Shown here piece by piece: positions 38,947-55,025 of a stretch of 64,000 nucleotides of DNA. Every line of letters starts with the position of its first letter. Within the stretch, counting starts at the first letter, position 1. A model generated the notes under the pieces. That model made no database searches, was not told the DNA's origin, and saw only the letters and a program-made list of their open reading frames with translations. Source of the DNA: Thiomicrorhabdus lithotrophica (GTDB lineage: Bacteria; Pseudomonadota; Gammaproteobacteria; Thiomicrospirales; Thiomicrospiraceae). Both the position numbers and the translations under genes were made by a program. The stretch is taken from positions 868,001-932,000 of the forward strand of contig NZ_CP102381.1 of the NCBI RefSeq assembly GCF_029201445.1. The letters are read 5' to 3'.

Positions 38947-39255
38947 TTGTCCTCTCATCCTACATAAATAATAAAATTTGCTGAATATCATAACGTATTT
39001 ATTCATTAGACAATAATTCATAATTATTGATAAGCAGTATATTTACTATTTGTTGTAAAAAAGCGGTTAAAAGAAAAGTGATATTTAATTGAGTAATCTA
39101 GGTGAATTTGAATAATCAATAGGTTAGGGCATATTCCAAAGACCTGTTCTGCTAAAGAAGGAGGAGGACGTAATTAAAATGTAAAAAAACCTAAAAATGT
39201 TCTTTTTTCTTGTTGACAGCAATAGGGGTGCTCTATACAATACGCCCCATCTTAT
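38947..39255. other. Intergenic region upstream of the tRNA cluster
   Basis: No gene is supported. It holds the folD upstream region and the tRNA operon promoter at its right end; otherwise it is AT-rich sequence. Confidence 0.5.
39213..39241 (+). promoter_or_regulatory. Promoter of the tRNA-Pro-Arg-His operon
   Basis: TTGACA (39213-39218), a 17-base spacer and TACAAT (39236-39241), then a GC-rich discriminator (ACGCCCC) typical of stringently controlled stable-RNA promoters, 14 bases before tRNA-Pro. Confidence 0.85.
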
Positions 39256-39332
39256 CGGAGTGTAGCGCAGCTTGGTAGCGCACCTGTTTTGGGTACAGGT
39301 GGTCGGGGGTTCAAATCCCTCCACTCCGACCA
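39256..39332 (+). tRNA. tRNA-Pro(UGG)
   Basis: 77 nt with encoded CCA. Acceptor CGGAGTG/CACTCCG; the anticodon loop TTTGGGT gives TGG; T-arm GGTTCAAATCC. The 5' C is typical of bacterial tRNA-Pro. Confidence 0.95.
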
Positions 39333-39393
39333 TATTCTTATTGCATTGAAGATGTTCAGCATCTTCAGTACGATAGTCAAAAGGTTCGATTAC

Positions 39394-39470
39394 GCGCCCA
39401 TAGCTCAACTGGATAGAGCATCGCCCTTCTAAGGCGAGGGTTTCAGGTTCGAATCCTGATGGGCGCACCA
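39394..39470 (+). tRNA. tRNA-Arg(UCU)
   Basis: 77 nt with encoded CCA. Acceptor GCGCCCA/TGGGCGC; the anticodon loop CTTCTAA gives TCT; T-arm GGTTCGAATCC. Confidence 0.95.
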
Positions 39471-39511
39471 TTCACTTGGTGTGATCCTTCTACAATTAGT
39501 ATATCTACTAT

Positions 39512-39588
39512 GGCGGGCGTAGCTCAGTTGGTAGAGTCCCGGATTGTGATTCCGGTTGTCGCGGGTTCAAGCCCCGTCGCTCGCCCCA
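39512..39588 (+). tRNA. tRNA-His(GUG)
   Basis: Begins with the extra G-1 typical of tRNA-His and has encoded CCA. Anticodon context GGATTGTGATTCC gives GTG; T-arm GGTTCAAGCC. It ends the three-gene tRNA cluster. Confidence 0.95.
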
Positions 39589-39870
39589 TTTTTCTTCTTG
39601 TTTGTCTATTTGCTTCTTTTTTCCTACTTTTGTATTACATATTTTCTATTAAGCTTTTCCTTCAAATAATTTGTTTTTATAAAACTTAATTTTTTATTGC
39701 ACCATATTGATGCTATTTAGTTCTTTTTAGATACAATTTAAGGTTTTAAGTTACCTGTTCCTTTCTATTTATTTTCAAAAACCCTTTTAAAACGCTATAT
39801 CTATTACTTGGTACTTCTTTTGCTTTATCGGTATTACCCTTTTTTAAATTAGTAATACTGGAGTTGTGAA

Positions 39871-40857
39871 ATGAAGTCTAAGATATTTTCTAAAACGTTT
39901 GGTTTGGTAGCGGGTCTCGCTATGAGTGCAATGACTTGGCAAGCAAATGCGGCTGAGCCTTTAAAGATTGGTTATAGTGATTGGCCTGGATGGGTTGCTT
40001 GGGAAGTAGCTATTGAGAAGAAGTGGTTTGCTAAAGAAGGCGTGGATGTAAAGTTTGAATGGTTTGATTACGTTGCATCTATGGATGCTTATGCAGCGGG
40101 TAAATTAGATGCTGTACACATGACTAACGGGGATGCGTTAGTGACCGGTTCTACTGGTGCACCAAGTGTCATGATTTTACTTAATGATTACTCTAACGGT
40201 AACGATATGGTTGTTGGTAAAGCTGGTGTTGAATCTATCAAAGACCTTAAAGGTAAAAAAGTAGGTGTAGAAGTTGGTTTTGTTGCTCACCTAATGTTAC
40301 TAACAGCTTTAGATGCCAATGGTATGTCTGAGTCTGATATTACTTTAGTTAACGTTCCTACCAATGAAACCCCACAAGTTCTAGCGTCTGGTGAAGTGGA
40401 TGCAATCGTTGCTTGGCAACCAAGTTCTGGTCAAGCTTTAAGCATGGTTCCAGGTTCTAAAGCGGTATTTACGTCTGCTAACAATCCAGGAATTATCTAT
40501 GATGGTTTATCTGTAAACCCTGCTAGTCTTTCAAGTCGTAAAGCTGACTGGGAAAAGGTTTTAAAAGTTTGGTATAAAACAGTCGATTACATTAATGATC
40601 CTAAAACACATGATGAAGCGGTAGCGATTATGGCTTCTCGTGCAGGTCTATCTGCTGAAGAATATGCGCCATTCCTTAAAGGAACTAAGCTGTTAACTTT
40701 AAAAGAAGCAAAAGCCGCATTTAAAAAAGGTGATGGGCTAGATTCTATCTACGGTTCTACGAAAGTGTCTGATGACTTTAACGTAGCTAACAAAGTTTAT
40801 GATGCTCCTCAAGATATCGATACCTATTTCGATGCATCTTTAACGAACGGTCTTTAA
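39871..40857 (+). CDS. ABC transporter periplasmic substrate-binding protein, NitT/TauT type
   Basis: 328 aa with a Sec signal peptide (cleavage after WQANA, about residue 27) and no lipobox. The mature protein begins [19 protein letters not shown], the common start of NitT/TauT (SsuA-like) binding proteins, and continues [14 protein letters not shown] and DAIVAWQPS. No permease or ATPase is adjacent. The matching NitT-type permease and ATPase are in the opposite operon at 52.1-54.0 kb. It most likely delivers the nitrogenous substrate of the carboxylase pathway, urea- or guanidine-like. The ligand itself cannot be read from the sequence. Confidence 0.9.
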
Positions 40858-40883
40858 TCTAATAAAGAATATTCGTTAAACCT

Positions 40884-40920
40884 ACCAGGCCTGGTTGTTT
40901 TATAAGTTACCAGGCCTGGT
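40884..40920. repeat. Two adjacent copies of the palindrome ACCAGGCCTGGT
   Basis: Exact copies at 40884-40895 and 40909-40920, spaced 25 bases start to start, downstream of the binding-protein gene. Either can form a hairpin. They may attenuate read-through so that the binding protein is made in excess over the downstream genes. Confidence 0.85.
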
Positions 40921-41009
40921 ATGTCCTGTGTCCATTAATACAATGTGAGCACAGGGCAACTTCTATTCATTTCCTATATTTAACTATTGTTGTAATCATG
41001 AGGTATCAC

Positions 41010-42023
41010 ATGAAAAAAAGTTCACTGTTTTTTAGACATGATGATGCTTTGTTTCCAACAATTCTTGCTCTGTTATATGTATTGAGCACCTATTTTTTTG
41101 GATTTGGATTGATACTTTCCGAATCTATTTGGTTGAATCTTATTGGTGTCGTTTTATTAGCCCATTCAATGGTGATTGCAGCCTATCTTATTCATGAAGC
41201 CGCGCATTTAAGTGTCTTTAAATCTAAAAAACACAATAAGTGGTTTGCTGAATTTTTATTGTGGATAACGGGTAATAGTTATTCTGCGTTTGATGATATT
41301 CAACGTAAGCATCAACGCCACCATACTGACCGTGCGGATATTGTCTCTTTTGACTTTAGACCCATTCTTGAAAAGCACCCAATAGTATTAAAAACCATTA
41401 ACTTGTTTGAATGGTTCTATATCCCAGCGTTAGAAGTGTTAATGCATCTATTAGTGATGGTTTTACCTTTTATCAAAGCGGATAGAAAATCTCGTAGAAC
41501 CAGAGTGTTAATCGTATTAGCTTTAAGGGTTTTTATGTTTAGCTGGCTTGCCTCTATCTCGATTCATGTTTTGTGGCTCTACCCATTAGCGTATTTGCTG
41601 TTTATGACTGTCATGCGTTTTATGGATGTACACCAACACACTTATGAAGTGTATGAAACCTTAGATAAACCAAGAGGAGCGGAGGCGCGTTTAAGAGATA
41701 GAGAGTTTGAAGAGCACAATACCTATTCAAATTTACTCTCTGTTAAATACCCTTGGGTAAATCTTTTGGTTTTGAATTTTAGTTATCACAATGTACATCA
41801 TGATCAACAAATGCAGCCTTGGTATCGTTTACCTAAAATCCATCATGAGAAATATGGTGATGAGTATCAGCAAATACTGACGTTTAGACACCTCATTAAA
41901 AGCTTTCATAAATACCGAGTACCTCGTGTTGTAAATGGTGATCCCATTGATTTACCTGTTAAACAAGATGAAGGTGAAACCTTTATTGGTGTTGACGGTG
42001 TCTCTTTTTTAACCGCACATTAA
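41010..42023 (+). CDS. Membrane fatty-acid-desaturase-like di-iron enzyme
   Basis: 337 aa with about four to six membrane segments. It has the three histidine boxes of the membrane di-iron desaturase/hydroxylase family: HEAAH (about residue 62), HQRHH (about 103) and HNVHH (about 255), with HQHTY between. The ATG at 41010 is preferred (GAGG 5 bases upstream) over one at 40998. The family includes desaturases, hydroxylases and monooxygenases. Here it sits in an operon-like row with an MBL hydrolase, a TIM-barrel protein and a DMT transporter beside a guanidine/urea-carboxylation operon. An oxygenase acting on the transported substrate is therefore as plausible as lipid desaturation; this is an inference. 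Confidence 0.85.
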   Translation: MKKSSLFFRHDDALFPTILALLYVLSTYFFGFGLILSESIWLNLIGVVLLAHSMVIAAYLIHEAAHLSVFKSKKHNKWFAEFLLWITGNSYSAFDDIQRKHQRHHTDRADIVSFDFRPILEKHPIVLKTINLFEWFYIPALEVLMHLLVMVLPFIKADRKSRRTRVLIVLALRVFMFSWLASISIHVLWLYPLAYLLFMTVMRFMDVHQHTYEVYETLDKPRGAEARLRDREFEEHNTYSNLLSVKYPWVNLLVLNFSYHNVHHDQQMQPWYRLPKIHHEKYGDEYQQILTFRHLIKSFHKYRVPRVVNGDPIDLPVKQDEGETFIGVDGVSFLTAH

Positions 42024-42044
42024 TCCTTATTTAGTAGGCTAAAT

Positions 42045-42827
42045 ATGACCCAAGTAAAAAAGTTTTGGCCTATTTTGACTGGCCGCCATCATTATGAGAA
42101 AACGCTATCTACTCGTGGGCGTGGTCATGGTGAAATTATTAAAGCTCCGATATTGGCCTATTTAATTGAAACCCAAAATGGCCGAATACTATTCGATGTG
42201 GGTTGTGATTATCAAAAGATTAAACAACCAGGCCTACGTAAACACTATTATGAGCATGATGGTTTTCCGTTTGGGCCTCCTGAGATGGAAGAAGAGGAAC
42301 AGTTACCTAATAAATTACAAATTTTAGGTCTACAGCCTGAAGATGTTGATGTGGTTTTTTGTAGTCATTTGCACTTTGATCATGCCGGTGGTTTATGTGA
42401 ATTTTGTCAGGCGGAAGTGCATGTTCATACAAGTGAAATGCAAGCGGCTAAAGACCTTGCTGATGATGCCTATTTTACATCTGATTTTGATTTACCACTA
42501 AATTGGAAAATACAACATGGGGAGTATGATTTAGTTCCTGGTGTCAGTGCCATTGAAACCCCTGGCCATACGGCTGGGCATATGTCGATGATGATTGAGT
42601 TGCCTAAAGGTCAGCCCATTATTTTGGCTGGGGATGCGGCAGATTTGGTTGAGAATCTAGAAGATGAAGTTCCACCAGGCCTGTGTTGGCAAGACAATGA
42701 ACAAATGGCGATTGATAGCATTAAAAAACTCAAACGGCTAAGTCTTCAACAAAAGGCTGTTCTATGGCCAAACCATGATTGGGATTTTTTTCAGAAACAT
42801 AATGTTTTCCCTAGTTTTTTTGAATAG
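42045..42827 (+). CDS. MBL-fold metallo-hydrolase (lactonase-like)
   Basis: 260 aa. Metal motif SHLHFDHAGG, further ligands in TPGHTAGHMS, LAGDAADL and PNHDW: a complete two-zinc site of the N-acyl-homoserine-lactonase/glyoxalase II superfamily. The N-terminal part (FWPILTGRHHYEKT...IIKAPILAYLIET) resembles AHL-lactonase-like proteins. The substrate is unknown. In this operon it could hydrolyse an ester, lactone or amide intermediate. Two palindrome near-copies lie inside (42237, 42674). Confidence 0.88.
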   Translation: MTQVKKFWPILTGRHHYEKTLSTRGRGHGEIIKAPILAYLIETQNGRILFDVGCDYQKIKQPGLRKHYYEHDGFPFGPPEMEEEEQLPNKLQILGLQPEDVDVVFCSHLHFDHAGGLCEFCQAEVHVHTSEMQAAKDLADDAYFTSDFDLPLNWKIQHGEYDLVPGVSAIETPGHTAGHMSMMIELPKGQPIILAGDAADLVENLEDEVPPGLCWQDNEQMAIDSIKKLKRLSLQQKAVLWPNHDWDFFQKHNVFPSFFE

Positions 42828-42838
42828 TTTAGTTTTGA

Positions 42839-43696
42839 GTGATGGGTATGAAGTTACAGACTTTTAAAACCTTATGGGGTAACACTTTGTCTATTCATGA
42901 TGCTTGTCAGGAAGCACGTTTAGCAAAGTTTGACGGTATTGAAGGGCGAGCCCCACAAACACAGCATGAAAGAGTGCTGTGGCTAGATGCATTAGAGCAA
43001 AATCACGCTGCTTATATTGCAGAAATTGTTACAGGTGAAGATTATGTTCCTAACCGTAAATGGAGCGTTCAACAGCATTTAGATGACTTGGCGTTACAGC
43101 TAGAAAATTCTCTGCCTTTAAATCCGCTTTTTGCAACCGCTATTGCAGGGCTAGATGCTTGGTCTGAAGAACAGTCAATTGAATTCTTTAAACAGGCAAT
43201 GGCTTTGGCAGATGACAAGGATATAGTCATTAGTTTTGAAACGCATCGTAGTCGAAGCCTTTTTAACCCTTGGGTGACTCAGAGAATTGTAGAAGCACTT
43301 CCACAAATCAAATTAACGGCAGATATCAGTCATTGGTGTGTGGTTTGTGAAAGACTAATGGATTCTGAAATAGAAACCATTAAAGCGATTGCTGGTAATG
43401 TCTACCATATACATGGTCGGGTCGGATATGACCAAGGCCCGCAAGTTCCAGATCCTGCCGCACCAGAGTATGCTGAAGCGTTAGCATCACATGAGCGAAT
43501 ATGGCAACTTTTTTGGACTCAACAGTTGAATCAAAATAGAAAAATGACAACCCTGACTCCCGAATTTGGCCCCGATGGTTATTGTCATTTACAGCCTTAT
43601 ACTCAGCAGCCGGTTGTAGATATTTGGAAGATAAATCAATGGATGAATCTTCGACAACAAGAACACTTTAAAGATTTTATTGAAGCGAGCCTATGA
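42839..43696 (+). CDS. Sugar-phosphate-isomerase/epimerase-like TIM-barrel protein
   Basis: 285 aa resembling the AP-endonuclease-2/xylose-isomerase-like TIM barrel. It has SIHDACQEARLAKFDGIEGR near the N-terminus and likely metal ligands in SFETHRSRS, TADISHWCVV and HIHGRVGYD. The reaction is not identifiable. Its end overlaps the transporter gene by four bases, and the start (ATG 42839, or the one six bases on) is 11 bases after the MBL gene. Confidence 0.8.
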   Translation: MMGMKLQTFKTLWGNTLSIHDACQEARLAKFDGIEGRAPQTQHERVLWLDALEQNHAAYIAEIVTGEDYVPNRKWSVQQHLDDLALQLENSLPLNPLFATAIAGLDAWSEEQSIEFFKQAMALADDKDIVISFETHRSRSLFNPWVTQRIVEALPQIKLTADISHWCVVCERLMDSEIETIKAIAGNVYHIHGRVGYDQGPQVPDPAAPEYAEALASHERIWQLFWTQQLNQNRKMTTLTPEFGPDGYCHLQPYTQQPVVDIWKINQWMNLRQQEHFKDFIEASL

Positions 43697-44586
43697 AAAA
43701 CCTAACTCAGCATGCACAATTTCCAGTATTGGTATTATTCGTTGCTTCATTTTTTTGGGGCTTAAGCTGGCTACCACTTAAATCATTAAATCAAATGGGG
43801 TTTGACGGGGCTGTACTTATCTTCTTCTCTTATGGACTATTATCACTAGTTTTTTTGCCGTTACTGTTTTTACAACGCTCCTATTTAGTTTCTCATTTAA
43901 AACCCTGGTTATTAATCTTTTTACTGGGTGGCGGTGCTAACTTTGTATTTAACTATGCGTTGATTTATGGTGAAGTCATTCGTGTAATGGTGTTGTTTTA
44001 TCTATTGCCATTATGGGGTGTTTTAGGAGGTAAGTTCTTTTTACATGAACATGTTGATGCAAAGGGTTGGTTAGCGGCAGGTTTAGCGATTTCAGGCGCG
44101 TTCCTGATTGTGGGTGGATTTAAAGTATTTGAAACGCCACCCAGTTGGATAGATTTTTTAGCGCTATTATCAGGCTTTTTGTTTGCGATGAATAACGTTG
44201 TATTTCGTGCAAATCAAGACTTTCCAATGATTCCAAAGCTCAGTGCATTATTTATAGGAACGACGGTCATGTCTGGTCTGCTCTTTTTTATTCAAGGCGC
44301 AGAGATTCCTCAAGATGTGAGTTTACCAGCATGGCAGCTGTTAGCATTCTACGGTTTAGTTTGGTTGCTTATCTCTAACTACGGCTCACAATGGGGAGTG
44401 ACACATATGCCAGCAAGTCGTTCTTCCATTATTATCATTACCGAGTTGGTTGTCGCGGTTATATCCGCGGTATTGATTGCCAATGAAACCATTAACTTAA
44501 TTGAAGGAGTTGGTGGTGTGCTTATTGTAACCGCTGCGGTATTAGAAGCCTTAAGAAATACCGATGAAGAAAAAAGAACCACTTAG
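43693..44586 (+). CDS. DMT/EamA-family membrane transporter
   Basis: 297 aa with about ten hydrophobic segments and the duplicated EamA layout, e.g. FFWGLSWLPLKSLNQMG in the first half and ITELVVAVISAVLIANE in the second. ATGA overlap with the TIM-barrel gene shows coupling. It probably exports or imports a small metabolite of the pathway. Followed by a convergent terminator. Confidence 0.9.
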   Translation: MKNLTQHAQFPVLVLFVASFFWGLSWLPLKSLNQMGFDGAVLIFFSYGLLSLVFLPLLFLQRSYLVSHLKPWLLIFLLGGGANFVFNYALIYGEVIRVMVLFYLLPLWGVLGGKFFLHEHVDAKGWLAAGLAISGAFLIVGGFKVFETPPSWIDFLALLSGFLFAMNNVVFRANQDFPMIPKLSALFIGTTVMSGLLFFIQGAEIPQDVSLPAWQLLAFYGLVWLLISNYGSQWGVTHMPASRSSIIIITELVVAVISAVLIANETINLIEGVGGVLIVTAAVLEALRNTDEEKRTT

Positions 44587-44627
44587 TTTATGTATTTGAT
44601 TCAAAAACCTAAATGTTCATCTTTATC

Positions 44628-44666
44628 AAAAAGCCCCGCTAATAATGATTTACTAGCGGGGCTTTT
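44628..44666. terminator. Convergent terminator between the two accessory operons
   Basis: AAAAGCCCCGCTA and TAGCGGGGCTTTT form a perfect 13-bp stem with a 13-base loop; it ends transcription from both sides. Confidence 0.93.
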
Positions 44667-44689
44667 AAGTTAAAAACCGGTAAAAAAAA

Positions 44690-46498
44690 CTAGTCAGCAG
44701 GGCGCTGTTTCATCCAATTACGCCAGCCACCTGTTTGCGTGATTTCTGTTGCCCCTTCGATACCGCAAGGTTCACAAATAAAACCGACTACTTCACTGCC
44801 ATCAATGAGTTCTACTTTACCTAAACCTAGTGGCGATGGAATTAATGCTAAGAATGAGCCTAAGTGTTGTTTTGGCATTGCCCAAACTTCCAGTTCAATC
44901 GATTCACCTTGCGAGGATGTTTTTACCAGGCCTGGTTTCAATATAGGGCGACTCGAAAGTTCATAAAACTGATATTTTGGTGCAGTTTTTGTAATCTTAA
45001 TTAACTTTGCACCGCGTTCAATTAACTGGCTATTGAGTGGGAATCCCATCAAATGAGCACCAACAACAGCAAGTGGAATAGTTTGTGAATTGGTAAAGTA
45101 CAATCCATTGGCATCAGGCACTTTCGTTTCTTTAGCACCAGCCGTGCTGACAAATTCTTTATGTAACTCATCGGAAAGTTTTAAGAGCGCGTTGTCACTG
45201 CCAGCAGGGGCAAAGAAGGTGACACCTGTAGGTAAGTCATCTTTTCTAAAGCCTGTAGGCATGGCAATCGCCGCGTAATCCAATAAATTCATAAAGTTAG
45301 TGTAGGTACCTAATATTGAATTAAGCCCAATTGGATCATTTTCAACGTCTTCAATACTATAAATAGAAGGTGTTGTCGGTGTCATCATGCAATCTATGCC
45401 AGATTCATCCCAAATGAGTTGAGTTTGGCGTTGCGCTTTTTGTAGAGCATAACTGCCTTTATAAGCATCTGCAGCAGATAGATTTCGTGCGCCTGCAATA
45501 ATGGCACCGACGGTTGGATCCATTTGTTGTTCATGTTTTTGCATAAACTCTTCTACTGCAACGTAGCGTTCTGCCACCCAGGCACCACCATAGAGAAGTT
45601 TAGCGGTACCTAACCAAGCTTGAAAGGGGACTTCTTTTAGCTCAAACCCTAGATTGTGTAATGTAGAGATAGCCTGTTCAAAGTTATCTTCAGCTAAAGT
45701 ATCACCTGCAAATATGCGGCTCGCTTTATCAGGTATACCAATGACGGGTTTTGTATTCCAAGCAGGTGGCGTCAAGTTGCTTTTATGGCGACTAAATTCA
45801 TCTTCAGTATCAAATACGGCACTGACTTGTAAAACGTCGTAAGCGTCTTGCGAGTTAAGTGCAAAAATACTCACGACATCTTGCGAACGAACCGCAGGCA
45901 CAACCCCTTTAGTGCTTAATAGGCCTTTGGATGGTTTTAGACCAATTAAGTTGTTAAATGCGGCAGGGACTCGTCCCGAACCTGCGGTATCGGTGCCTAA
46001 AGAGAAGCTACAAAGGTTAAGCGCTAAAGAGACTGCAGATCCTGAACTTGAGCCGCCTGAAATCATTTTAAAATCAAAGCTGTTGTGACACGGGCCATAA
46101 GGTGAACGCGTACCTACCAGGCCTGTCGCAAATTGATCAAGATTGGATTTACCTACAGGAAGGGCGCCAGCCTCAAGTAATTTTGTAACAACCGTTGCTG
46201 ATTCAGTCGGTAAATTGGTAAATTCTTTACAAGCGGCGGTGGTTGGAATATTAGCCAAATCAATATTGTCTTTAATGACAAACGGCACTCCCCAAAGAGG
46301 AAGACTGTTAGGCTCTGAATTTTCCAGTCGACTTAAATAGGGTTCTAATTCATTTTCATTTAATAAGTGAATAAACAGATTGTAGTTGTCATATTCTTGT
46401 GCATTTTCACGCAATACCTTCATTAAGGCTCTTGGTGTTAAATCGCCATTTTGATACTGCTGTTTAAGTGCAGATAAGGTTAGGTTTAATTCATGCAT
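44690..46498 (-). CDS. atzF: Allophanate hydrolase
   Basis: 602 aa; hydrolyses allophanate to 2 NH3 + 2 CO2. Amidase-signature domain with the catalytic Lys in [19 protein letters not shown] and [16 protein letters not shown]-terminal domain of about 150 residues ([18 protein letters not shown]...) is typical of this family. The ATG at 46498 overlaps the carboxylase stop by 8 bases. It contains the exact palindrome at 44925-44936 and a near-copy at 46116. Confidence 0.95.
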
Positions 46499-49400
46499 CT
46501 TCAGATACCTCAAGAATCATTAAGGCTTGACCGGTTTGGATTAGGTCACCTTCATTCACTAAAATTTCAGTAACGGTACCCGCTGTTTCAGCGGTAACGG
46601 GAATCTCAATTTTCATTGTCTCTAGAATGGCAATAGTGTCATCTTCTTTAATGACATCCCCTGGTTTTACTTGAATTTTCCAAACACTTCCTGTGATAGG
46701 TGAGGTTGCTGCTTCAAACCCTTCTGGAATTTCAGCCATGACATCGCTTTGAATTTCATCTTGAGTTTCCGCTTCAAAATTCGCTAAACCAGACTCTTCC
46801 CAATAGAGGCGTTCCGCTTCGAAAGCCGCTTGTTGTTGAGTTTGAAAGGTTTCAATACTTTCATTGTTTTCTGCCAGGAACGCTTGGTACTTATTGAGCG
46901 ATAGTTCGGTTTCTTCAATTTCAATATCGTAACGTCCTAATGGGAAGTCTAAACGTGCCTGCGCTAATTCCTCTTCTGACACAGGATAGTATTGAATTTG
47001 GTCAAAGAAGTTCAGTAACCAAGGCTTACCTTCTTTAAAGAATTTTGTTTGGTGATAGGCGTTCCACATCTGAATCGTACGTCCAACAAACTGGTAACCA
47101 CCTGGGCCTTCCATTCCGTAAACACACATATAAGCACCACCAATACCCACTGCATTTTCTGGTGTCCAGGTACGAGCTGGGTTGTATTTGGTGGTAACCA
47201 AGCGGTGGCGTGGGTCCAGTGGTGTGGCGACTGGCGCGCCAAGATAAACATCGCCTAACCCCATAACTAAATATTTGGCATCAAATACAATACGTTTTAC
47301 ATCTTCAATACTGTCTAAACCGTTAATACGACGAATAAAGTCAATATTACTTGGACACCAAGGTGCATCTGGACGCACGGTGGTCATGTATTTTTCAATC
47401 GCTAATTTGGTGCTTGGATCATCCCACGAGAGCGGTAAACGAACAATACGGCTTTTAACCGTTAAGTCTTGACCAGAAGAAATCTCGTCTTCTAAAGTAA
47501 TCAGTTTTTCGATTAACTCAGCTTGAGAAATTAAACGAGGATCATAATGTACCTGTAAAGAACGTATGCCTGGTGTTAGATCTTTTAAGAACGACCAGGC
47601 CTGGTTACTTGATTCTTTGTTTTCTTTTAAACGTTCAAATAGTACCTGAATACGGAAACGTAACGCTAAATCGAGTTCCATTGCGCCATATTCAATTAAC
47701 ACATGGCTATCACCTGAGCGACGATATTTAACGCCAAATTCATGATTTTCTGCACTGATTTCATGCGCTAAACAAGACTGTTCAGTTGAACTCGTTAAGA
47801 AGTTTAAAGCGGGTACAGTTTTCGCAGTTAAGGTTTTAATCGCATTCTCTTGAGATTTGATCGCTTGTTCTGCTTCAGCGGTTGATACGGCTTTAAAACG
47901 AACTTTATCGCCTGGTCGTAATTGCCCCATTTTCCACTGTTCGGCTTCGATGATGGTTGCAGGGCAGACAAAGCCGCCTAAGCTTGGGCCATCTTGCGCA
48001 AGAATAACCGGCATATCACCAGTAAAGTCGATAGCGCCTATGGCATAAGGGTTGTCGTGAATATTGGATGGATGAAGACCCGCTTCACCACCATCTTTAC
48101 GTGCCCATTGTGGTTTAGGCCCAACTAAACGAATTCCTGTTCGGCTAGAGTTGTAGTGTACTTTCCATTCGGCAGCAAAAAAGCTTTCTATATCACTTTC
48201 TGTAAAGAAGTCTGGGCAACCTTGAGGCCCATAAATAACCGCTATTTCGTATTCATTGGTTAAGGTTGGAATCGCTTTTGTTGGGATTACCTGTAAGTTA
48301 GATGGTATTTCTATATCGTGCAGACGTAAGACGTCACCCGTACGCAATAAACGGCCACCATGCCCACCAAACTTTCCTAAAGAGAAAGTGGTTTTACTGC
48401 CCATATAATCAGGTACATCAAAACCGCCTAGTACGGCTAGATAAGAGCGTTGACCAAGATTTTTAATGACTTTAGTTTTTAGCTGTTGGCCCGCTTTAAC
48501 CATAACGGGTTGCCAAAGTGGAATCGCTTGTTTATCTAAGGTAGGTTGAATGTCTGCACCTGTGATACAGATAACGGTATCCGTATCAAAGGTTAAGCTT
48601 ATTCCTGATACGGCCATTTCAATAGTCGCGGCTTCTTCATCGTTACTTAAGCAACGGTTGGCTAAACGATGTGAAAGGGCATCCATTGGTCCTGAAGGTG
48701 GTACACCAATATCCCAGTAACCGACTCGTCCAGGATAACTTACCAGCATTGAATGTGTACCAGGGTTAGTCACTTCAATTGTGTTAGGTGAATGGGTAAA
48801 ACCGTTTAGAAATTGAGTATAAAGCTGTGTACCTTGTTTGAATGCTGGAGCATGACTGAGTGCTTCTAAATAGGTAATGTTGGTTTCAAAACCGTCAATT
48901 CTGGCTTGTGCTAAGGCTTTTTGTAATGCGATGACAGCTTTTTCACGGTTGTCTGCTTTAACAATGATTTTAGCCATCATTGGGTCATAGAACGAGCTGA
49001 CTTCGGTACCGCGTTCACACCACGTATCGACACGACAATTTGATGGCATTGTCCAGCCAGTTAACTTACCACTGCTTGGTAAAAAGTTTTTAAATGGGTC
49101 TTCGGCATAAACACGCACTTCAATAGAGTGTCCTGAAGCCGCTGGAATTTGATCTGCACTTAGTGGTAATTTAGGTTCATAAGCGACTTTAATCATCCAC
49201 TCAACTAAATCCACACCACGAACTTCTTCAGTAATTCCGTGTTCAACCTGAAGACGTGTGTTAACTTCTAAAAAGTAAAATTCATTACAATCAGCATCAT
49301 AAACATACTCGACTGTACCGGCTGATTTGTAGTTAACGACTTTACCTAATTCAATGGCATGGATTTCCATTTGTTGAACCTGTTCTCGGCTAATACCGAC

Positions 49401-50129
49401 GGCAGGGGTTTCTTCAACCACCTTTTGATTTCGGCGTTGCAGCGAGCAGTCACGCTCACCAAATGAAACGACATTACCCAGTCCGTCACCAAAAATCTGA
49501 ATTTCAATATGACGTGCGTTAACAACAAACTTTTCTAAAAAAAGTCCTGCCTGACCAAACGAATTTTGGCTCAAGCGTTTAACCTGTTCAAAGGCATCGA
49601 TTAAATCGGTTTCACTGTCACATTTCTGCATACCAATTCCACCGCCACCAGCGGTACTTTTTAACATGACTGGGTAGCCAATCTTTAGGGCTTCAGTCAT
49701 GGCTTCTTCTAGAGAGTCTAGTAGACCTGAGCCAGGAAGTAGTGGAACTTCGGCTTTAATAGCAAGTTCACGAGCGGTATGTTTTAAACCGAAATCACGA
49801 ACATGTTCTGGAGCTGGGCCAATAAAACGAATTCCGGCAGCTTCACAGTCGTCCGCAAAACTGGTGTTTTCACTTAAAAAACCATAACCAGGGTGCACCG
49901 CATCAACGCCAAGTTTTATTGCCTCAGCAAGAATAAGCGGAACATTTAAGTAGGTTTCTGTTGCGGCGTTGCCAGGTAAAAAGATGACTTCATCGGCTTG
50001 CTGTACATGCAATGAAGCACGATCCGCATCAGACGCTAAAACAACCGATTTGATATTCATCTGTTTTAGGGTACGGATAATGCGGGTAGCGATAGCACCA
50101 CGGTTAGCGATAAGTACTTTGTTAAACAT
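46491..50129 (-). CDS. Urea/guanidine carboxylase (biotin-dependent)
   Basis: 1212 aa in the full urea-carboxylase order. The biotin carboxylase begins [20 protein letters not shown] and has [11 protein letters not shown]. The carboxyltransferase (KipA/KipI-like) occupies about 470-1050 with [18 protein letters not shown] and [11 protein letters not shown]. The C-terminal biotinyl domain carries [11 protein letters not shown]. The ATG at 50129 starts at the conserved [11 protein letters not shown]; an ATG 21 codons earlier is not supported. Enzymes of this type next to two DUF1989 proteins were shown to prefer guanidine over urea, giving carboxyguanidine. I cannot distinguish the two substrates by eye here. 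The exact palindrome at 47594-47605 encodes NQAWSF. Confidence 0.93.
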
Positions 50130-50287
50130 CTTAGTTTCCTTTTCAGACCGTTCTGAATCGTTTTGTTGACCAATTTTGTATGGTCTACCCAATAGGTCGT
50201 CCTATTGGGTTGTGTTTACTGCTGTTTGATTAAGCCGTTTCATTTGGTTATTCGGTATGAATTGGCGAATTATTCTTGAGGTTTGGT

Positions 50288-50932
50288 TTATTCCCAAATA
50301 ACCATTTCAACAGGGGTAGGGTTGTAGCCATTACAAGGGTTATTCAGTTGAGGGCAGTTTGATACTAAAATCAATGTATCCATATGCGCTTCCATTTCAA
50401 CGTATCGTCCAGGCGCTGAAATCCCATCATCAAAATCTAAATGGCCATCTGGTGAAACGGGTACATTCATAAAAAAGTTAATGTTGCTCGAAAGGTCTTC
50501 TTTTGTCATCGCTTTATCGTGGTTGCATTCACAATTACCTAAAGCCATTAAAAATGAGTCACGGCAAGAGTGCATATGACGTTTTTCAATCGCATAACGT
50601 ACGGTATTACTCTCGGCTGAACAAGCACCACCAATCGTATCGTGACGCCCACAAGTGTCATCCACAATGGTTAGCATGGGATTGTTTAAGTTTGAGCGTA
50701 ATACACTGCCTGTGGTTAAGTAGATGTTTCCCTGTTCACGAATGGTATCGGTTGCTGAATAACGCTCGCTATGATCTTTAGCGTTATAAAATAAGGTATC
50801 AACAGCCTCGTTGCCTTCTAAATCAACGATACGGAAACGTTGACCCGCTTTCACTTCATGCATCCAAGGTTCGCCGGCTTTTACTACTTCGCGGTACACA
50901 ATACGGTTTTCATCAAATTGTTTATTAGTCAT
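50288..50932 (-). CDS. DUF1989 urea-carboxylase-associated protein, probable carboxyguanidine deiminase subunit B
   Basis: 214 aa. It carries [20 protein letters not shown] (Cys and His ligands) and [26 protein letters not shown]. It pairs with the upstream DUF1989 gene; heterodimers of such proteins (CgdAB) deiminate carboxyguanidine to allophanate. The start at 50932 overlaps the preceding gene by 8 bases; an ATG 26 codons further up is unconserved and lies inside that gene. Called subunit B by position only. Confidence 0.85.
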
Positions 50933-51677
50933 CTGGGTTCTCCCCGTAAAAGATTTTGGTGTTGTAGTAAGCGCGTTGGTTTTCGGCACGGTGTAAGCGA
51001 CAAGCGTCATCGGCTTTTACTTCTTCAGCTTTAAATACACTTAGTTCAATAGGTTGCGGTGCATACTCTGGACTTGTATCCATCGGGTGTTGTGCGGTAG
51101 ATAAACTGACGATGCAGTCCATCTCAAAACGTAAGTCGACGAAGTCGCCAGCAGTAGAGTTATTTTCAATAAAGGTCATTGAACCATCATCTTCAACTCG
51201 TACCTTAGAAAACCAGTTGAGGTTTGGCACGATATCACTGGCGTTTAAACCCCATTTAGTTAGTTCATTAATGAGGCTGTCATACCCATTTTTAAAATAG
51301 TCGTTATGCGCACTTTGGTAGTCTTTTTCACCGTATTTGGCTTTTAAGGTCTTTGCATTAGATAAACCACCAATGGTGTCATGCCATCCACAAGTATCGG
51401 CAATGACTGAACACATTACGCGTCCCATGTCACTGAAGCACATATTTGGCGTGGTTAAAAATGCCGTCTTTTGTGCCTTAAGCGTATCAGGCATGTTGTA
51501 GCGTTCATTCTTAACTTCAAGGTTGTTAATTAACATGGCTACATTCGCTTTACCTTGAATATCTGTAATTCTTAACACCGTGCCGCGGCGAATGACGCCA
51601 GACCAGTGAGCTCCTGCGGGTAACGATTCTGACCAGATAAAGCCGTTATAGGTTGTTGGTTGAGTGGCATCAGTCAT
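50925..51677 (-). CDS. DUF1989 urea-carboxylase-associated protein, probable carboxyguanidine deiminase subunit A
   Basis: 250 aa, homologous to its downstream neighbour. It has [17 protein letters not shown] (catalytic/metal Cys and His), [15 protein letters not shown] near the N-terminus and [19 protein letters not shown]. It overlaps both the NikR-like gene and the second DUF1989 gene by 8 bases. The long C-terminal tail ([24 protein letters not shown]) is typical of the larger subunit. Confidence 0.85.
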
Positions 51678-52140
51678 TAGAACCCTCCTGAGTTAAACTG
51701 CTGGTTGATGTATAAATTGGCGGTAAGGCCGATTGAGTTAAATATAAGTTGCCATTTTTAACACCACGATTGCTCTGCATTTCATCACTAATACGCTTTA
51801 ATTCTTGAGCTGGGCCCTGCATTAGGTTGACTTCTAGAGTATGGTGATTCATTAGTTGAATCTGTGTACTAGAGATAATCTCAGCAACATGCTGGTGTTT
51901 AAGATGGTTTAGTTTTTGTTGCAGGCCTGGAACCGAGTGGTCATAGACCATAGTAAAGGTACCGGCCATAATTTCGTTTGTATGGTCTTGGCTAAAAGCC
52001 GCCGCTTCTTTTCGGATAATCTCTGCTAATAGGGCAGAGCGGTTGTTAAAACCACGAGCATGCATAAGATTATCAAGTTGTTCTATTACGTCTTCTGGTA
52101 ATGACGCACTTGTTCTGATAAGTTTGCTATTTTGTGTCAT
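51670..52140 (-). CDS. NikR-like ribbon-helix-helix regulator with an altered metal site
   Basis: 156 aa. N-terminal RHH DNA-binding domain (residues 6-47: KLIRTSASLPEDVIEQLDNL...RGFNNRSALLAEIIRKEA) and a C-terminal ACT-like tetramerisation domain (about 57-140, ending in NRGVKNGNLYL), both clearly NikR-like. Aligned to E. coli NikR, the Ni ligands His76, His87, His89 and Cys95 correspond to His82, Gln93, Gln95 and Thr101. Three of four ligands are therefore gone. It probably senses something other than nickel and controls this operon, in which it is embedded between the ABC ATPase and DUF1989 genes with an 8-base overlap. Confidence 0.85.
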   Translation of the reverse strand: MTQNSKLIRTSASLPEDVIEQLDNLMHARGFNNRSALLAEIIRKEAAAFSQDHTNEIMAGTFTMVYDHSVPGLQQKLNHLKHQHVAEIISSTQIQLMNHHTLEVNLMQGPAQELKRISDEMQSNRGVKNGNLYLTQSALPPIYTSTSSLTQEGSND

Positions 52141-52142
52141 TG

Positions 52143-53054
52143 TTAAAATATATCCGGTACTTCTGAGTTGACTGAAACCATGCGAACCATGCTGAGCTTA
52201 TCTTCCATATCCACTTCAGTTGTCGGTGGATGCACAAGTTTTTCTAAATATTCTTTAGTGGCAAAAAACTCAGGGCTTAACAAGGTTTCTTCTTTTCTAG
52301 GACGAGGTAAAGGAACGCTTAAGGTTTCCTGAACTCGTCCAGGGTTTGCTTCTAAAATTAAAATTCTGTCGGCTAAATAAATCGCTTCGTCTAAATCGTG
52401 GGTGATAAAGAAAATCGTGATGTCGATGTTCTGCCAAATTTCCAATAAATAACGCTGCATTTTTAAACGATTTTGCGGATCTAGAGCGGCAAACGGTTCA
52501 TCCATAAGCAGAATTTTAGGTTGATTGGCTAGGGCTCTAATAATCGCAACGCGCTGTTTCATTCCACCAGATAACTGGTGTGGGTAAGCATTTGCAAACT
52601 TCTCAAGCCCAACTAAATCAATCCATTGAAACGCTTCAGCTTCAGCCGAGTTTTTAGACATGCCACTTTCAGTTAGGCCAAACATCACGTTTTGCTTTAC
52701 TGTCATCCATGGAAATAGCGAATAACTTTGAAATACCATGCCTCTGTCTGGACCAGGCCCATCAACCAGATCGTCATCAATATGAATAGCACCCACTTCA
52801 TGGGTTTCTAACCCGGCTATTAAGCGAGCCAAAGTTGATTTACCGCAACCTGAAGGCCCAACTACACAGACAAATTCACGTTTGTAAGCGGTAAAGTCAA
52901 TCGAATTAAGCACATTGATTTTTTTACCTTTATGCTCAAAGGTTTTATGCAGGTTTGAGATGGTTAAGGCTTTAGGGCGCTGAAGAATGCGAGCATTTCT
53001 GTCTTTAATTTCAGGCGTATACCAAGCTGCTAAAGGGTGAATGTGTTTTAACAT
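52143..53054 (-). CDS. NitT/TauT-type ABC transporter ATPase
   Basis: 303 aa. Walker A GPSGCGKSTLARL, Q-loop MVFQSYSLFPWMTV, signature LSGGMKQRVAIIRAL, Walker B ILLMDEPFAALD, H-loop FITHDLDEAIYLADR. A 30-residue N-terminal extension precedes the domain. It is 9 bases after the permease and matches the binding protein at 39.9 kb by family. Confidence 0.95.
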   Translation of the reverse strand: MLKHIHPLAAWYTPEIKDRNARILQRPKALTISNLHKTFEHKGKKINVLNSIDFTAYKREFVCVVGPSGCGKSTLARLIAGLETHEVGAIHIDDDLVDGPGPDRGMVFQSYSLFPWMTVKQNVMFGLTESGMSKNSAEAEAFQWIDLVGLEKFANAYPHQLSGGMKQRVAIIRALANQPKILLMDEPFAALDPQNRLKMQRYLLEIWQNIDITIFFITHDLDEAIYLADRILILEANPGRVQETLSVPLPRPRKEETLLSPEFFATKEYLEKLVHPPTTEVDMEDKLSMVRMVSVNSEVPDIF

Positions 53055-53063
53055 TTGGTTCTC

Positions 53064-54038
53064 CTATTTACCTGTATGCCAAGGGAATAATCGTTTACCA
53101 ATTTGAGCTAATAAAATATCGGTAATTAGGCCAATTAATCCAATAATCAGAATAGCTGCGAAAACGTTATCAAAGTTCTTATAGCGCGCTTGTTGGGTAA
53201 TGAACCAGGTAATCCCAGAGCTTGTTCCAATTAGCTCAGCCACAATCAGGTAAGTCCAAGCCCAGCCTAGAAGGATGCGCATATCTCTATATAAGTCAGG
53301 CAAAATACCAGGCAAGATAACGCGTCTAATCATGCGAAATCCTCTGCAACCCAATGTTAGAGAGGCTTCTACTAAAGCCATGTTCAGTTTCCTGGTTGTT
53401 GTAGACACAATTAATACCATTTGGAAAAAGGTTCCAATAAAGATAATGGCAATTTTAGGTGCATCGTAAATTCCTAAAATGGCAACGGCTAAAGCACCAA
53501 AAGCCGGTGCGGGTAGGTATCTAAAAAATTCTGTAAACGGCTCAATTAAATGTGAGGCCGCATTGTACGTCCCAGCGAGTATTCCTAATGGAACACCAAA
53601 TAACATCGCCCAGAAAAAGCCCCATGCAATGACACTGATTGAGTGGCCTAAGCTTTCATGTAACCAAGGCTCACCATTTCGTTTTGGAGGCGTGGTAAAT
53701 GCGGTGTAAAGTGCAGTAACTACTTCATGTGGAGCAGGCAAATAAACTGGATTGACTGGAAACCCTTGAGGTAAGGTGCTCATATCAATTTGTGGGTTTT
53801 CAGCGATTTTTTTATCAACCTCTAACTGAAAAACCTCTTTATCAACTACGGTCCCTTCACGAAAATAACTTACGCCTCCAGGTTGAGTAACCTCAACCTG
53901 AGGGTGCCATATAAATGGTGTATAGCTGACGAGACACCAAAGAAATATGGGAATAGCAAAGCTAGCGAACGTGAGCAAGCGAGCGGATTTTTTATCGACT
54001 GGTGTTCTAGGTATGGCCCAGCTTTTTAAGCGACTCAT
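53064..54038 (-). CDS. NitT/TauT-type ABC transporter permease
   Basis: 324 aa. Membrane segment at about 25-45, a roughly 70-residue periplasmic insert (PQVEVTQPGGVSYFREGTV...), then five segments. The EAA-type loop (EASLTLGCRGFRMIRRVILPGILPDLYRDMRI) contacts the ATPase. First gene of the - strand operon; the 183 bases upstream contain no recognisable guanidine riboswitch or clear regulator site. Confidence 0.93.
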   Translation of the reverse strand: MSRLKSWAIPRTPVDKKSARLLTFASFAIPIFLWCLVSYTPFIWHPQVEVTQPGGVSYFREGTVVDKEVFQLEVDKKIAENPQIDMSTLPQGFPVNPVYLPAPHEVVTALYTAFTTPPKRNGEPWLHESLGHSISVIAWGFFWAMLFGVPLGILAGTYNAASHLIEPFTEFFRYLPAPAFGALAVAILGIYDAPKIAIIFIGTFFQMVLIVSTTTRKLNMALVEASLTLGCRGFRMIRRVILPGILPDLYRDMRILLGWAWTYLIVAELIGTSSGITWFITQQARYKNFDNVFAAILIIGLIGLITDILLAQIGKRLFPWHTGK

Positions 54039-54221
54039 AAGGATTGACTCGTATTATAGTGAATTAGTTATTACTTTTTTCTAAAAACGTAATAAGCAAT
54101 GGTTGTGCCATGCCTAAAAGTTTATAGATTTCAGGTGGTTAAGTTGTTTTTATGATTTTACTGATAATAGAGTGGTTTAGAATGATGCAGGTTTGTTCTT
54201 AAATAGCACAGTTGTGGTGCG

Positions 54222-54968
54222 TTACAGTATTTTTCGGATTGAGGTTTGACCAGATGATAATATTTTGATGGTGTCAGGCAGCTTTATAACGGCTTGTCCT
54301 TGAGGATTTACACCTAAATAAATGCCTTGCTCTTCGATATCAGGTGAAATTAATTTGACCGTTTCATCTATTCTAAATAAGTCATTGAGTTGCCAATAAT
54401 GAGCAAGTTCTTGTTGCGAGTAGTTTTGTAGCTCTGATTGTTGGATTTTTTTGAAAAAGTTTTGGAAAAAAACTTCTAAATCAAAGTGCTTTACTAAGCT
54501 AGAGCCTTCTAATAACGGATTTTCTGCCGATGCATCTCGGTTAATTCCAATTCCGATGATAAAAGCACGATAGTCTTTCTTAATAACCTGCTCAATTAGA
54601 ATGCCAGCCACTTTACCTGAATCATTAAAAATGTCATTAGGCCATTTTAAATACAAAGTTTCTGCGGTGAGTTCAGTTAATGTTTGGTGCAGTAAGCTCG
54701 CAATATGCAAACTTACCAGGCCTGATAAAACGTAGTCTTTATCAACGGGGAAGGCCAAAGAGAAAATGGCGGACTTTTCATTTGTTAACCAGCTACGTTT
54801 TTGTTGGCCGTAACCTGCGGTTTGATTTTTTGTAGTACAGAATAAGGGTTTATTAGGTCTCTTTTCTGATACATAATCTTTTAAAAAACGGCTAGTCGAA
54901 TCAACACTCTCTAAAGAAATGATGTCATAGTTTTTGTGGTGGATTGTTGTCACGCTTGTTTCAGCCAT
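54222..54968 (-). CDS. birA: Biotin--protein ligase (no HTH domain)
   Basis: 248 aa. Catalytic domain with ESVDSTSRFLKDYV, AGYGQQKRSW (the biotinyl-AMP loop, normally GRGRxGRxW, here substituted) and LKWPNDIF, then a C-terminal SH3-like domain. It lacks the N-terminal DNA-binding domain of E. coli BirA, so it is a ligase only. Located just upstream of the operon containing a biotin-dependent carboxylase, which needs it. The palindrome near-copy at 54715 encodes LSGLVS. Confidence 0.92.
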   Translation of the reverse strand: MAETSVTTIHHKNYDIISLESVDSTSRFLKDYVSEKRPNKPLFCTTKNQTAGYGQQKRSWLTNEKSAIFSLAFPVDKDYVLSGLVSLHIASLLHQTLTELTAETLYLKWPNDIFNDSGKVAGILIEQVIKKDYRAFIIGIGINRDASAENPLLEGSSLVKHFDLEVFFQNFFKKIQQSELQNYSQQELAHYWQLNDLFRIDETVKLISPDIEEQGIYLGVNPQGQAVIKLPDTIKILSSGQTSIRKIL

Positions 54969-55025
54969 GGTTTAGTAGTTTCTTTTGTTAATCATTTATT
55001 TTGTAAATGCCATTTTATCGAAATT

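Follow-up and report, generated by a model that had tools for sequence, protein, structure and literature searches.

What could a membrane oxygenase, a metallo-hydrolase, a TIM-barrel protein and a transporter be doing beside genes for guanidine breakdown? This question is raised by a locus of Thiomicrorhabdus lithotrophica in the 64,000-nucleotide stretch of contig NZ_CP102381.1 analysed here (the window, to which all positions refer). Two operons converge there, meeting at about 44.6 kb. The plus-strand operon (39871 to 44586) codes for a periplasmic binding protein (SBP), a desaturase-superfamily protein (DES), a metallo-hydrolase (MBL), a TIM-barrel protein (TIM) and an EamA-type transporter (DMT). 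The minus-strand operon (54038 to 44690) codes for an ABC transporter permease and ATPase, a NikR-like regulator, the deiminase subunits UAAP1 and UAAP2, a carboxylase and an allophanate hydrolase. The original prediction, made from the DNA letters, had proposed that the plus-strand genes form an upstream module freeing guanidine or urea. Its open reading frames (ORFs) were verified as to position and strand, and the Pfam and NCBIfam family assignments concur. The idea of a module finds support in a shared operator and in guanidine riboswitches of relatives, and guanidine is indicated rather than urea. We hold it to be rather probable that the two operons make up one guanidine regulon, in which DES and TIM would free guanidine from an N-alkylguanidine for the carboxylase.

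The guanidine pathway and its companion cassette

The minus-strand operon encodes a guanidine route, not a urea route, because the carboxylase has both signature aspartates and the deiminase subunits and allophanate hydrolase score above curated cut-offs. The carboxylase (46491–50192, minus) reaches 1810.4 bits with TIGR02712 (cut-off 1303.85), UAAP1 (50925–51677, minus) 348.5 bits with TIGR03425 (205.95), UAAP2 (50288–51010, minus) 353.3 bits with TIGR03424 (284.7), and the allophanate hydrolase (44690–46513, minus; AtzF type, Amidase plus AH_C) 730.1 bits with TIGR02713 (511.05). The two DUF1989 proteins are thereby assigned as carboxyguanidine deiminase subunits; a search with UAAP1 of PDB sequences gave no match at E 1e-5. 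Guanidine carboxylases are recognised by Asp at the positions equivalent to 1584 and 1330 of the Kluyveromyces lactis enzyme (PMC11410670, in excerpt). When the window protein is aligned to 3va7/5i8i, D980 (GLGDV) corresponds to K. lactis Asp1584 and D721 (GAIDFTGD) aligns with yeast Asn1330; both residues that separate guanidine from urea carboxylases are thus of the guanidine type. The original prediction had named this pathway for the operon. Asp also occupies position 1330 in all 20 readable homologous carboxylase genes of 21 stretches, the position being unreadable in L022, L060 and L063. As a side observation, one relative (G021; L016, 13257–18637) has, some 5 kb away from its complete allophanate hydrolase gene, a 107-residue fragment that matches this enzyme; a HinT-like gene and two long ORFs separate the two.

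The plus cassette belongs with this operon, because DES and the deiminase are concordant in their distribution, the two operons share an operator and guanidine riboswitches precede DES in relatives; on these grounds, we rejected a chance neighbourhood. Among 58 relatives searched, DES was found in 16 and UAAP1 in 18. The family set comprises 37 genomes, some of them incomplete (G000 to G036, G000 being the organism's own). DES and the deiminase gene occur together in 16 of these and are both missing from 21, and none is discordant. The other two UAAP1 genomes, G037 and G055, belong to other families and are without DES. In a draw of 369 genomes of the class, 11 have DES, 29 have UAAP1 and nine have both. 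Fisher tests, which ignore relatedness, give 7.8e-11 in the family and 1.6e-9 in the class. A draw of 398 genomes of the phylum gave DES in seven, all of the same class. UAAP1 was tested in the DES genomes other than five of the phylum draw (G449, G524, G532, G578 and G770).

The gene set is constant across relatives and the gene order variable. The convergent order of the window recurs in L015, L017, L018 and L024, and four loci (L023, L027, L028 and L029) are colinear, with the carboxylase operon followed by DES-MBL-TIM-DMT-SBP. Outside the family, G154 (L045) has a single run that also includes creatininase-like (CRN) and type III glutamine-synthetase-like (GS3) genes, in the order SBP-permease-ATPase-CRN-GS3-DES-TIM-UAAP1-UAAP2-carboxylase-allophanate hydrolase; the DES and deiminase operons stand side by side in G369, and TIM-DES lies about 8 kb from the SBP-led operon on one contig in G162. 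The first stretches of G013, G019, G026 and G003 (L019 to L021 and L026) are devoid of a carboxylase gene, which is close by in G019 and G003 and on another contig in G013; in G026, UAAP1 is about 22 kb from DES. In G578 and G524, TIM-DES adjoins an ABC transporter, and no riboswitch was found in the short loci scanned. Some stretches are not independent: L031 is apparently the same contig as G333:C173, and L051/L066, L045/L070 and L025/L075 partly overlap.

The original prediction named co-occurrence of the cassette with DUF1989 and carboxylase genes as a check, and DES does co-occur with the DUF1989 gene UAAP1 in both the family and the class draw; the operons keep together in relatives, down to physical linkage in G154, G369 and G162. 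Neither does DES occur mainly with lipid or unrelated genes. Its annotated neighbours include no lipid genes (the flanks in G202 and G247 being hardly annotated), the annotated DES loci have a guanidine-gene context, and riboswitches were found at 12 of the 30 DES loci scanned for them.

The importer genes are split between the operons. The permease (53064–54038) and the ATPase (52143–53054), both family matches on the minus strand, have no binding protein in their own operon; the sole one of the locus is the first gene of the plus operon (39871–40857, plus), an NMT1/SsuA-type protein by family assignment, copies of which, 71–92% identical, accompany the cassette in the 15 family relatives. 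The flanks hold three tRNA genes and FolD upstream of the plus operon, and BirA and HrpB upstream of the minus operon. We rejected FolD as a member of the module, as only four stretches (L015, L016, L017 and L022) out of the 15 from family relatives have it beside the cassette. A separate observation concerns the 12-bp palindrome ACCAGGCCTGGT, with 15 sites in the window (including 40884, 40909, 44925 and 47594) and none in 100 shuffles. Two copies lie between SBP and DES. It is present in 12 of 87 loci, several of which overlap one another or come from the genome of the organism itself, and it resembles dispersed repeats of the uptake-signal or HIP1 kind.

Operator, regulator and riboswitches

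The palindrome TATTAC-N14-GTAATA is found at 39832–39857, 14 bp before the SBP start, and at 54069–54094, where 31 bp separate it from the permease start. One hundred shuffles of the window yielded no match; as the pattern was derived from the window, these two sites are not independent of it. They are the only two in the 2.5-Mb genome, where a reversed control pattern also has two sites. One or two sites per genome are thus expected by chance, and it is their placement that counts. Across 41 stretches (796,860 bases, window included), the palindrome is matched exactly 31 times, 29 of these being elsewhere than in the window. Every match falls 9–121 bp upstream of the projected start of an SBP, permease, creatininase-like, DES or carboxylase gene. 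In the 16 module-bearing genomes of the family, 36 of 41 operator sites lie no more than about 25 kb from DES, UAAP1 or CRN (the reversed control has 15 sites in all); nine of the 21 module-free relatives together have three operator sites and five control sites. Both sites of G162 and the single one of G333 are also near the module, and G154 and G275 have no exact match.

The likely binder of this operator is the NikR-like protein (51670–52140, minus), which combines a ribbon-helix-helix domain with NikR_C. It barely passes one NikR model (105.6 bits, cut-off 105) and misses TIGR02793 (73.9 bits, cut-off 175.45). Rewritten as GTATTA-N16-TAATAC, operator 1 has a 6-16-6 spacing, like the Escherichia coli NikR site. 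Aligned to Pyrococcus horikoshii NikR (2bj1), the protein has Gln, Gln and Thr in place of two His and the Cys among the NikR nickel ligands, which are His, His, His and Cys. Among its homologues, Cys is replaced by Thr in 13 of 13, and the two His are kept in L060 and L064. Nickel is an unlikely ligand because the ligand residues are replaced. Instead, the protein may sense a compound of the pathway and act at the shared operator; that this compound is guanidine or a derivative is a guess. The conservation within a guanidine operon of a NikR-family regulator lacking the nickel ligands is an observation in its own right. Among the open-licence papers listed on NikR and guanidine, none appeared relevant by its title.

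Several relatives of the window organism carry guanidine riboswitches. Guanidine-II aptamers (34.6–40.6 bits, gathering score 32) directly precede DES in G008, G017 and G025, which are of the same genus, and in G333, G162 and G154. A guanidine-I riboswitch (75.3 bits, gathering score 63) precedes DES in G275, and others precede SBP-DES in G142, G297, G449, G532 and G770. The total of 12 among 30 loci concerns the DES loci other than L047 (G202) and L048 (G247) and includes short stretches of about 4 kb (L078 to L082). Riboswitch control of the pathway is frequent, not universal, and the NikR-like protein is a candidate protein regulator where others use riboswitches.

A proposed route and its rivals

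DES (40998–42023, plus) matches the FA_desaturase family PF00487 with 129.9 bits and has three His boxes (HEAAH, KHxxHH and YHNVHH) whose histidines are invariant in 19 homologues; its C-terminus is IGVDGVSFLTAH. Its nearest named homologue is from Hydrogenovibrio sp. JE_KL2 (70%), and a search of genome contigs with DES gave only three loci. A role as a lipid desaturase was rejected, given a best NCBIfam score of 21.7 bits against a cut-off of 500 for the lipid-desaturase equivalog and the absence of lipid genes among the annotated neighbours. The DES profile has no match among PDB sequences at E 0.01. In plasmids, a single match was found (34%, Gloeothece); on that plasmid of Gloeothece verrucosa (L052), the gene adjoins those of ectoine synthase, a GNAT protein and a tryptophan halogenase, which suggests a biosynthetic use of a related oxygenase. 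MBL (42045–42827, plus) belongs to Lactamase_B (68.9 bits) and is nearest to the acyl-homoserine lactone (AHL) lactonase AiiA, with 159.2 bits, below the cut-off of 375. Its HxHxDH motif is kept, invariant in 14 aligned homologues, and MBL is present in 23 of 32 DES loci. DMT (43693–44586, plus) has two EamA stretches.

TIM (42839–43696, plus) gives a weak xylose-isomerase-like match (24.5 bits, Pfam threshold 31.1). Four residues, Glu133, Asp161, His189 and Glu241, do not vary among 21 homologues; in the structure model (mean pLDDT 82.9) they map to strands, like the metal ligands of the superfamily. The model fits epimerases and C-glycoside deglycosidases equally well: among the 50 VIA-align matches listed, Z runs from 20.9 to 18.8 with the top rows tied, root-mean-square deviations are 2.7–3.6 and 235–253 residues are aligned. 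The top Foldseek match is D-tagatose 3-epimerase. Such likeness of fold is no proof of function. Searched against PDB sequences, the TIM profile has no match at E 0.1 and the single protein finds only unrelated chains (E 0.27 or more). GTG or TTG starts were listed for TIM, the carboxylase and the allophanate hydrolase and may be too early.

In the route we propose, SBP, permease and ATPase would import guanidine and a substituted guanidine. DES would hydroxylate the carbon adjoining the guanidino nitrogen to give a carbinolamine, from which TIM would release guanidine together with an aldehyde, the job of MgdL in the methylguanidine pathway. Carboxylation, deimination and hydrolysis would then yield ammonia and CO2. 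MBL may hydrolyse either a side product or the substrate in cyclic form, and DMT may transport the substrate or excess guanidinium. As the substrate, we tentatively put methylguanidine first; creatinine or creatine come second, as somewhat less likely, and failing these it would be another N-alkylguanidine.

The methylguanidine pathway itself is that of the gca operon of Vreelandella boliviensis, in which the 2-oxoglutarate (2OG) dioxygenase MgdH is followed by MgdL, a lyase of the type that breaks N-(hydroxymethyl)guanidine, with catalytic D49 and R51 in a modelled beta-barrel; methylguanidine is turned into guanidine and formaldehyde (PMC12508155, in excerpt). A protein family found at some DES loci, HRI (HRI1-like), has a D-x-R pair like this one, kept as D-L-R in the seven members read. 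In G275, the order is DES-MBL-HRI-DMT, corresponding to DES-MBL-TIM-DMT in the family of the window organism. In G206, a 2OG dioxygenase gene lies downstream of the carboxylase gene, and a 295-aa ORF that matches no family separates the two. The gene after that of the dioxygenase, whose end it overlaps, codes for an HRI1-like protein with D-L-R. From the motif and the gene arrangement, the HRI proteins are predicted to be MgdL-like. The class draw has HRI in six of 369 genomes, all six with UAAP1. Across the 32 DES loci, counted within fetched stretches that do not exceed about 20 kb, the neighbour of DES is TIM in 24, HRI in five (G275, G142, G449, G532 and G770), neither in three (G202, G247 and G297) and both in none. 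A search of the organism's own genome with the MgdL-like protein (query P0001, itself predicted to be MgdL-like) found nothing at E<=1e-6, and a Pfam scan of 17 proteins encoded in the region detected no 2OG/Fe(II) dioxygenase domain. In plasmids, the MgdL-like protein has no match, and the G206 dioxygenase retrieves 328 records with 2OG oxygenases, all below 60% identity. We also observed a locus (L060, G119) with the order HRI-DMT-SBP-permease-ATPase-CRN-GS3-NikR-UAAP1-UAAP2-carboxylase, where the stretch has no DES match and an oxygenase partner is not apparent.

A number of observations weigh against a guanidine-freeing DES–TIM pair under common control. The exchange of TIM for HRI in the same slot is seen in G275 alone, whereas the four further loci with HRI also hold creatininase-family and short-chain dehydrogenase/reductase (SDR) genes, and the predicted nature of the MgdL-like protein limits the support that this exchange provides. 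The G206 stretch has no allophanate hydrolase match. G202 and G297 have DES and no UAAP1 above cut-off, G297 giving a weak match of 116.6 bits. At gathering scores, no guanidine riboswitch was found in the window (nor any at E<=2 in 39000–55000), nor before DES in 12 of the 15 family relatives, and G369 and G119 carry the NikR-like gene yet have no exact operator match. The structure model of DES has a pLDDT of 50.7. Lastly, MBL, creatininase-like and glutamine-synthetase-like partners are common, yet superfluous for a methylguanidine route.

Could the cassette rather degrade creatinine or creatine? DES would then hydroxylate creatinine (to creatol) or creatine, and MBL or a creatininase-family hydrolase would open the ring, giving methylguanidine or guanidine and a C2 acid. 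We deem this rather unlikely; it is the main rival. Oxidation of creatinine is reported to yield creatol and N-methylguanidine (PMC3775425, in excerpt). Creatininase-family and type III glutamine-synthetase-like genes are in the module of ten of the 16 family genomes; the organism's own and the five other family DES genomes have no match to this creatininase-like protein at E<=1e-10, and the protein itself reaches 122.7 bits against a creatininase cut-off of 235. The own genome also has no type III glutamine-synthetase-like neighbour at the thresholds used, and the window cassette has no SDR. It is in five more distant genomes (G142, G297, G449, G770 and G532) that DES belongs to a cluster headed by guanidine-I and containing a gene for creatininase or a close homologue: the proteins of G142 and G297 score 351.8 and 352.7 bits with TIGR04448 (cut-off 235), and the other three are 67–70% identical to the G142 protein. 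These clusters add one or two SDRs and a biuret-hydrolase-like (isochorismatase-family) protein; MBL is in three of the five and the MgdL-like protein in four. Their layout, seen in other families of the class (L083, L084, L085, L044 and L050), is SBP-DES-SDR-(SDR)-(DMT)-creatininase-isochorismatase-(MBL)-(HRI). They are candidates for an oxygenase route for creatinine.

A protective cassette within the guanidine regulon would be a different matter: it would remove or export toxic guanidine analogues, or modify membrane lipids when guanidinium builds up. DES is of the desaturase superfamily and the last gene of the cassette encodes a DMT transporter, the superfamily to which small guanidinium exporters also belong. 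Guanidine riboswitches also control export genes (PMC12186494, in excerpt). We nevertheless think a protective role improbable: the cassette is headed by an import binding protein, in G154 a single gene run unites DES and TIM with the importer genes (SBP, permease and ATPase) and those of the carboxylase pathway, and TIM, MBL and the MgdL-like partners have no obvious lipid role, with no lipid genes among the annotated neighbours. Far less probable still is that the minus operon is a urea route, fed by a cassette that frees urea from a substituted urea. The carboxylase model still bears the name urea carboxylase, and the model nearest to the binding protein is a 'urea' one, with a score under its cut-off; against this stand the Asp that replaces Asn at K. 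lactis position 1330, both in the window protein and in the 20 homologous genes read, the deiminase CgdAB and the riboswitches of relatives. We rejected the urea route on the strength of Asp1330 and CgdAB.

The locus points to an enzyme pair that may produce free guanidine and that recurs in several families within a single bacterial class; it also links guanidine production to creatinine-type compounds. Few enzymatic reactions are known to make free guanidine, although guanidine riboswitches are widespread (PMC12508155, in excerpt).

Comparison with known systems

The locus is best filed as a variant of the known oxygenase-plus-lyase front end of guanidine catabolism. The original prediction had called the module previously undescribed. 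This holds in part. No description of the enzyme set or of the regulator was found among open-licence papers, mostly judged by title (those on Hydrogenovibrio and guanidine included nothing relevant by title); the principle is known, since an oxygenase-plus-lyase front end for methylguanidine has been published with other enzymes (MgdH/MgdL, PMC12508155, in excerpt). It is tempting to speculate further that the cassette represents a second, unrelated solution to the release of guanidine from substituted forms, with a membrane di-iron oxygenase of the desaturase superfamily acting on a small charged guanidino compound, a TIM-barrel lyase where MgdL would stand and a NikR-fold regulator liganded by guanidine or a derivative in place of nickel, the sister version with creatininase being an oxygenase route from creatinine to guanidine. 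This combined proposal is possible, and we advance it with reserve.

With the established sequence of guanidine carboxylase, carboxyguanidine deiminase and allophanate hydrolase, the minus operon shares the carboxylase and its signature residues, the two deiminase subunits, the hydrolase and the curated scores. It differs in having its binding protein in the convergent cassette, a NikR-like gene within the operon and no riboswitch detected in the window. NikR nickel regulators have the same ribbon-helix-helix and NikR_C architecture and the same 6-16-6 operator spacing; here, the nickel ligands are not retained, and the site and target genes concern guanidine. The likeness to creatininase-based degradation of creatinine resides in the creatininase-family genes beside DES in many genomes, including the five distant clusters, whereas the organism's own genome has no creatininase match and an oxygenase is central here. 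Creatininase and guanidine carboxylase are both mentioned in one paper, PMC12625717.

The closest parallel is with MgdH and MgdL. In both systems, an oxygenase and a lyase act, as proposed here and shown there, ahead of the three enzymes that carboxylate guanidine, deiminate the product and hydrolyse allophanate. An ABC importer is likewise common to both, as are riboswitches for guanidine (here in relatives) and, in the TIM slot of G275, a predicted MgdL-like protein. The oxygenase there is a 2-oxoglutarate dioxygenase and here a membrane protein of the di-iron desaturase superfamily; a TIM barrel stands in the place of MgdL, and the chemistry was assayed there and is deduced here. The present system further includes MBL and DMT and, in some genomes, genes of the creatininase-like and glutamine-synthetase-like kinds, besides the NikR-like gene and the operator of the window. 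On the simplest reading, DES would stand in for MgdH, and TIM for MgdL.

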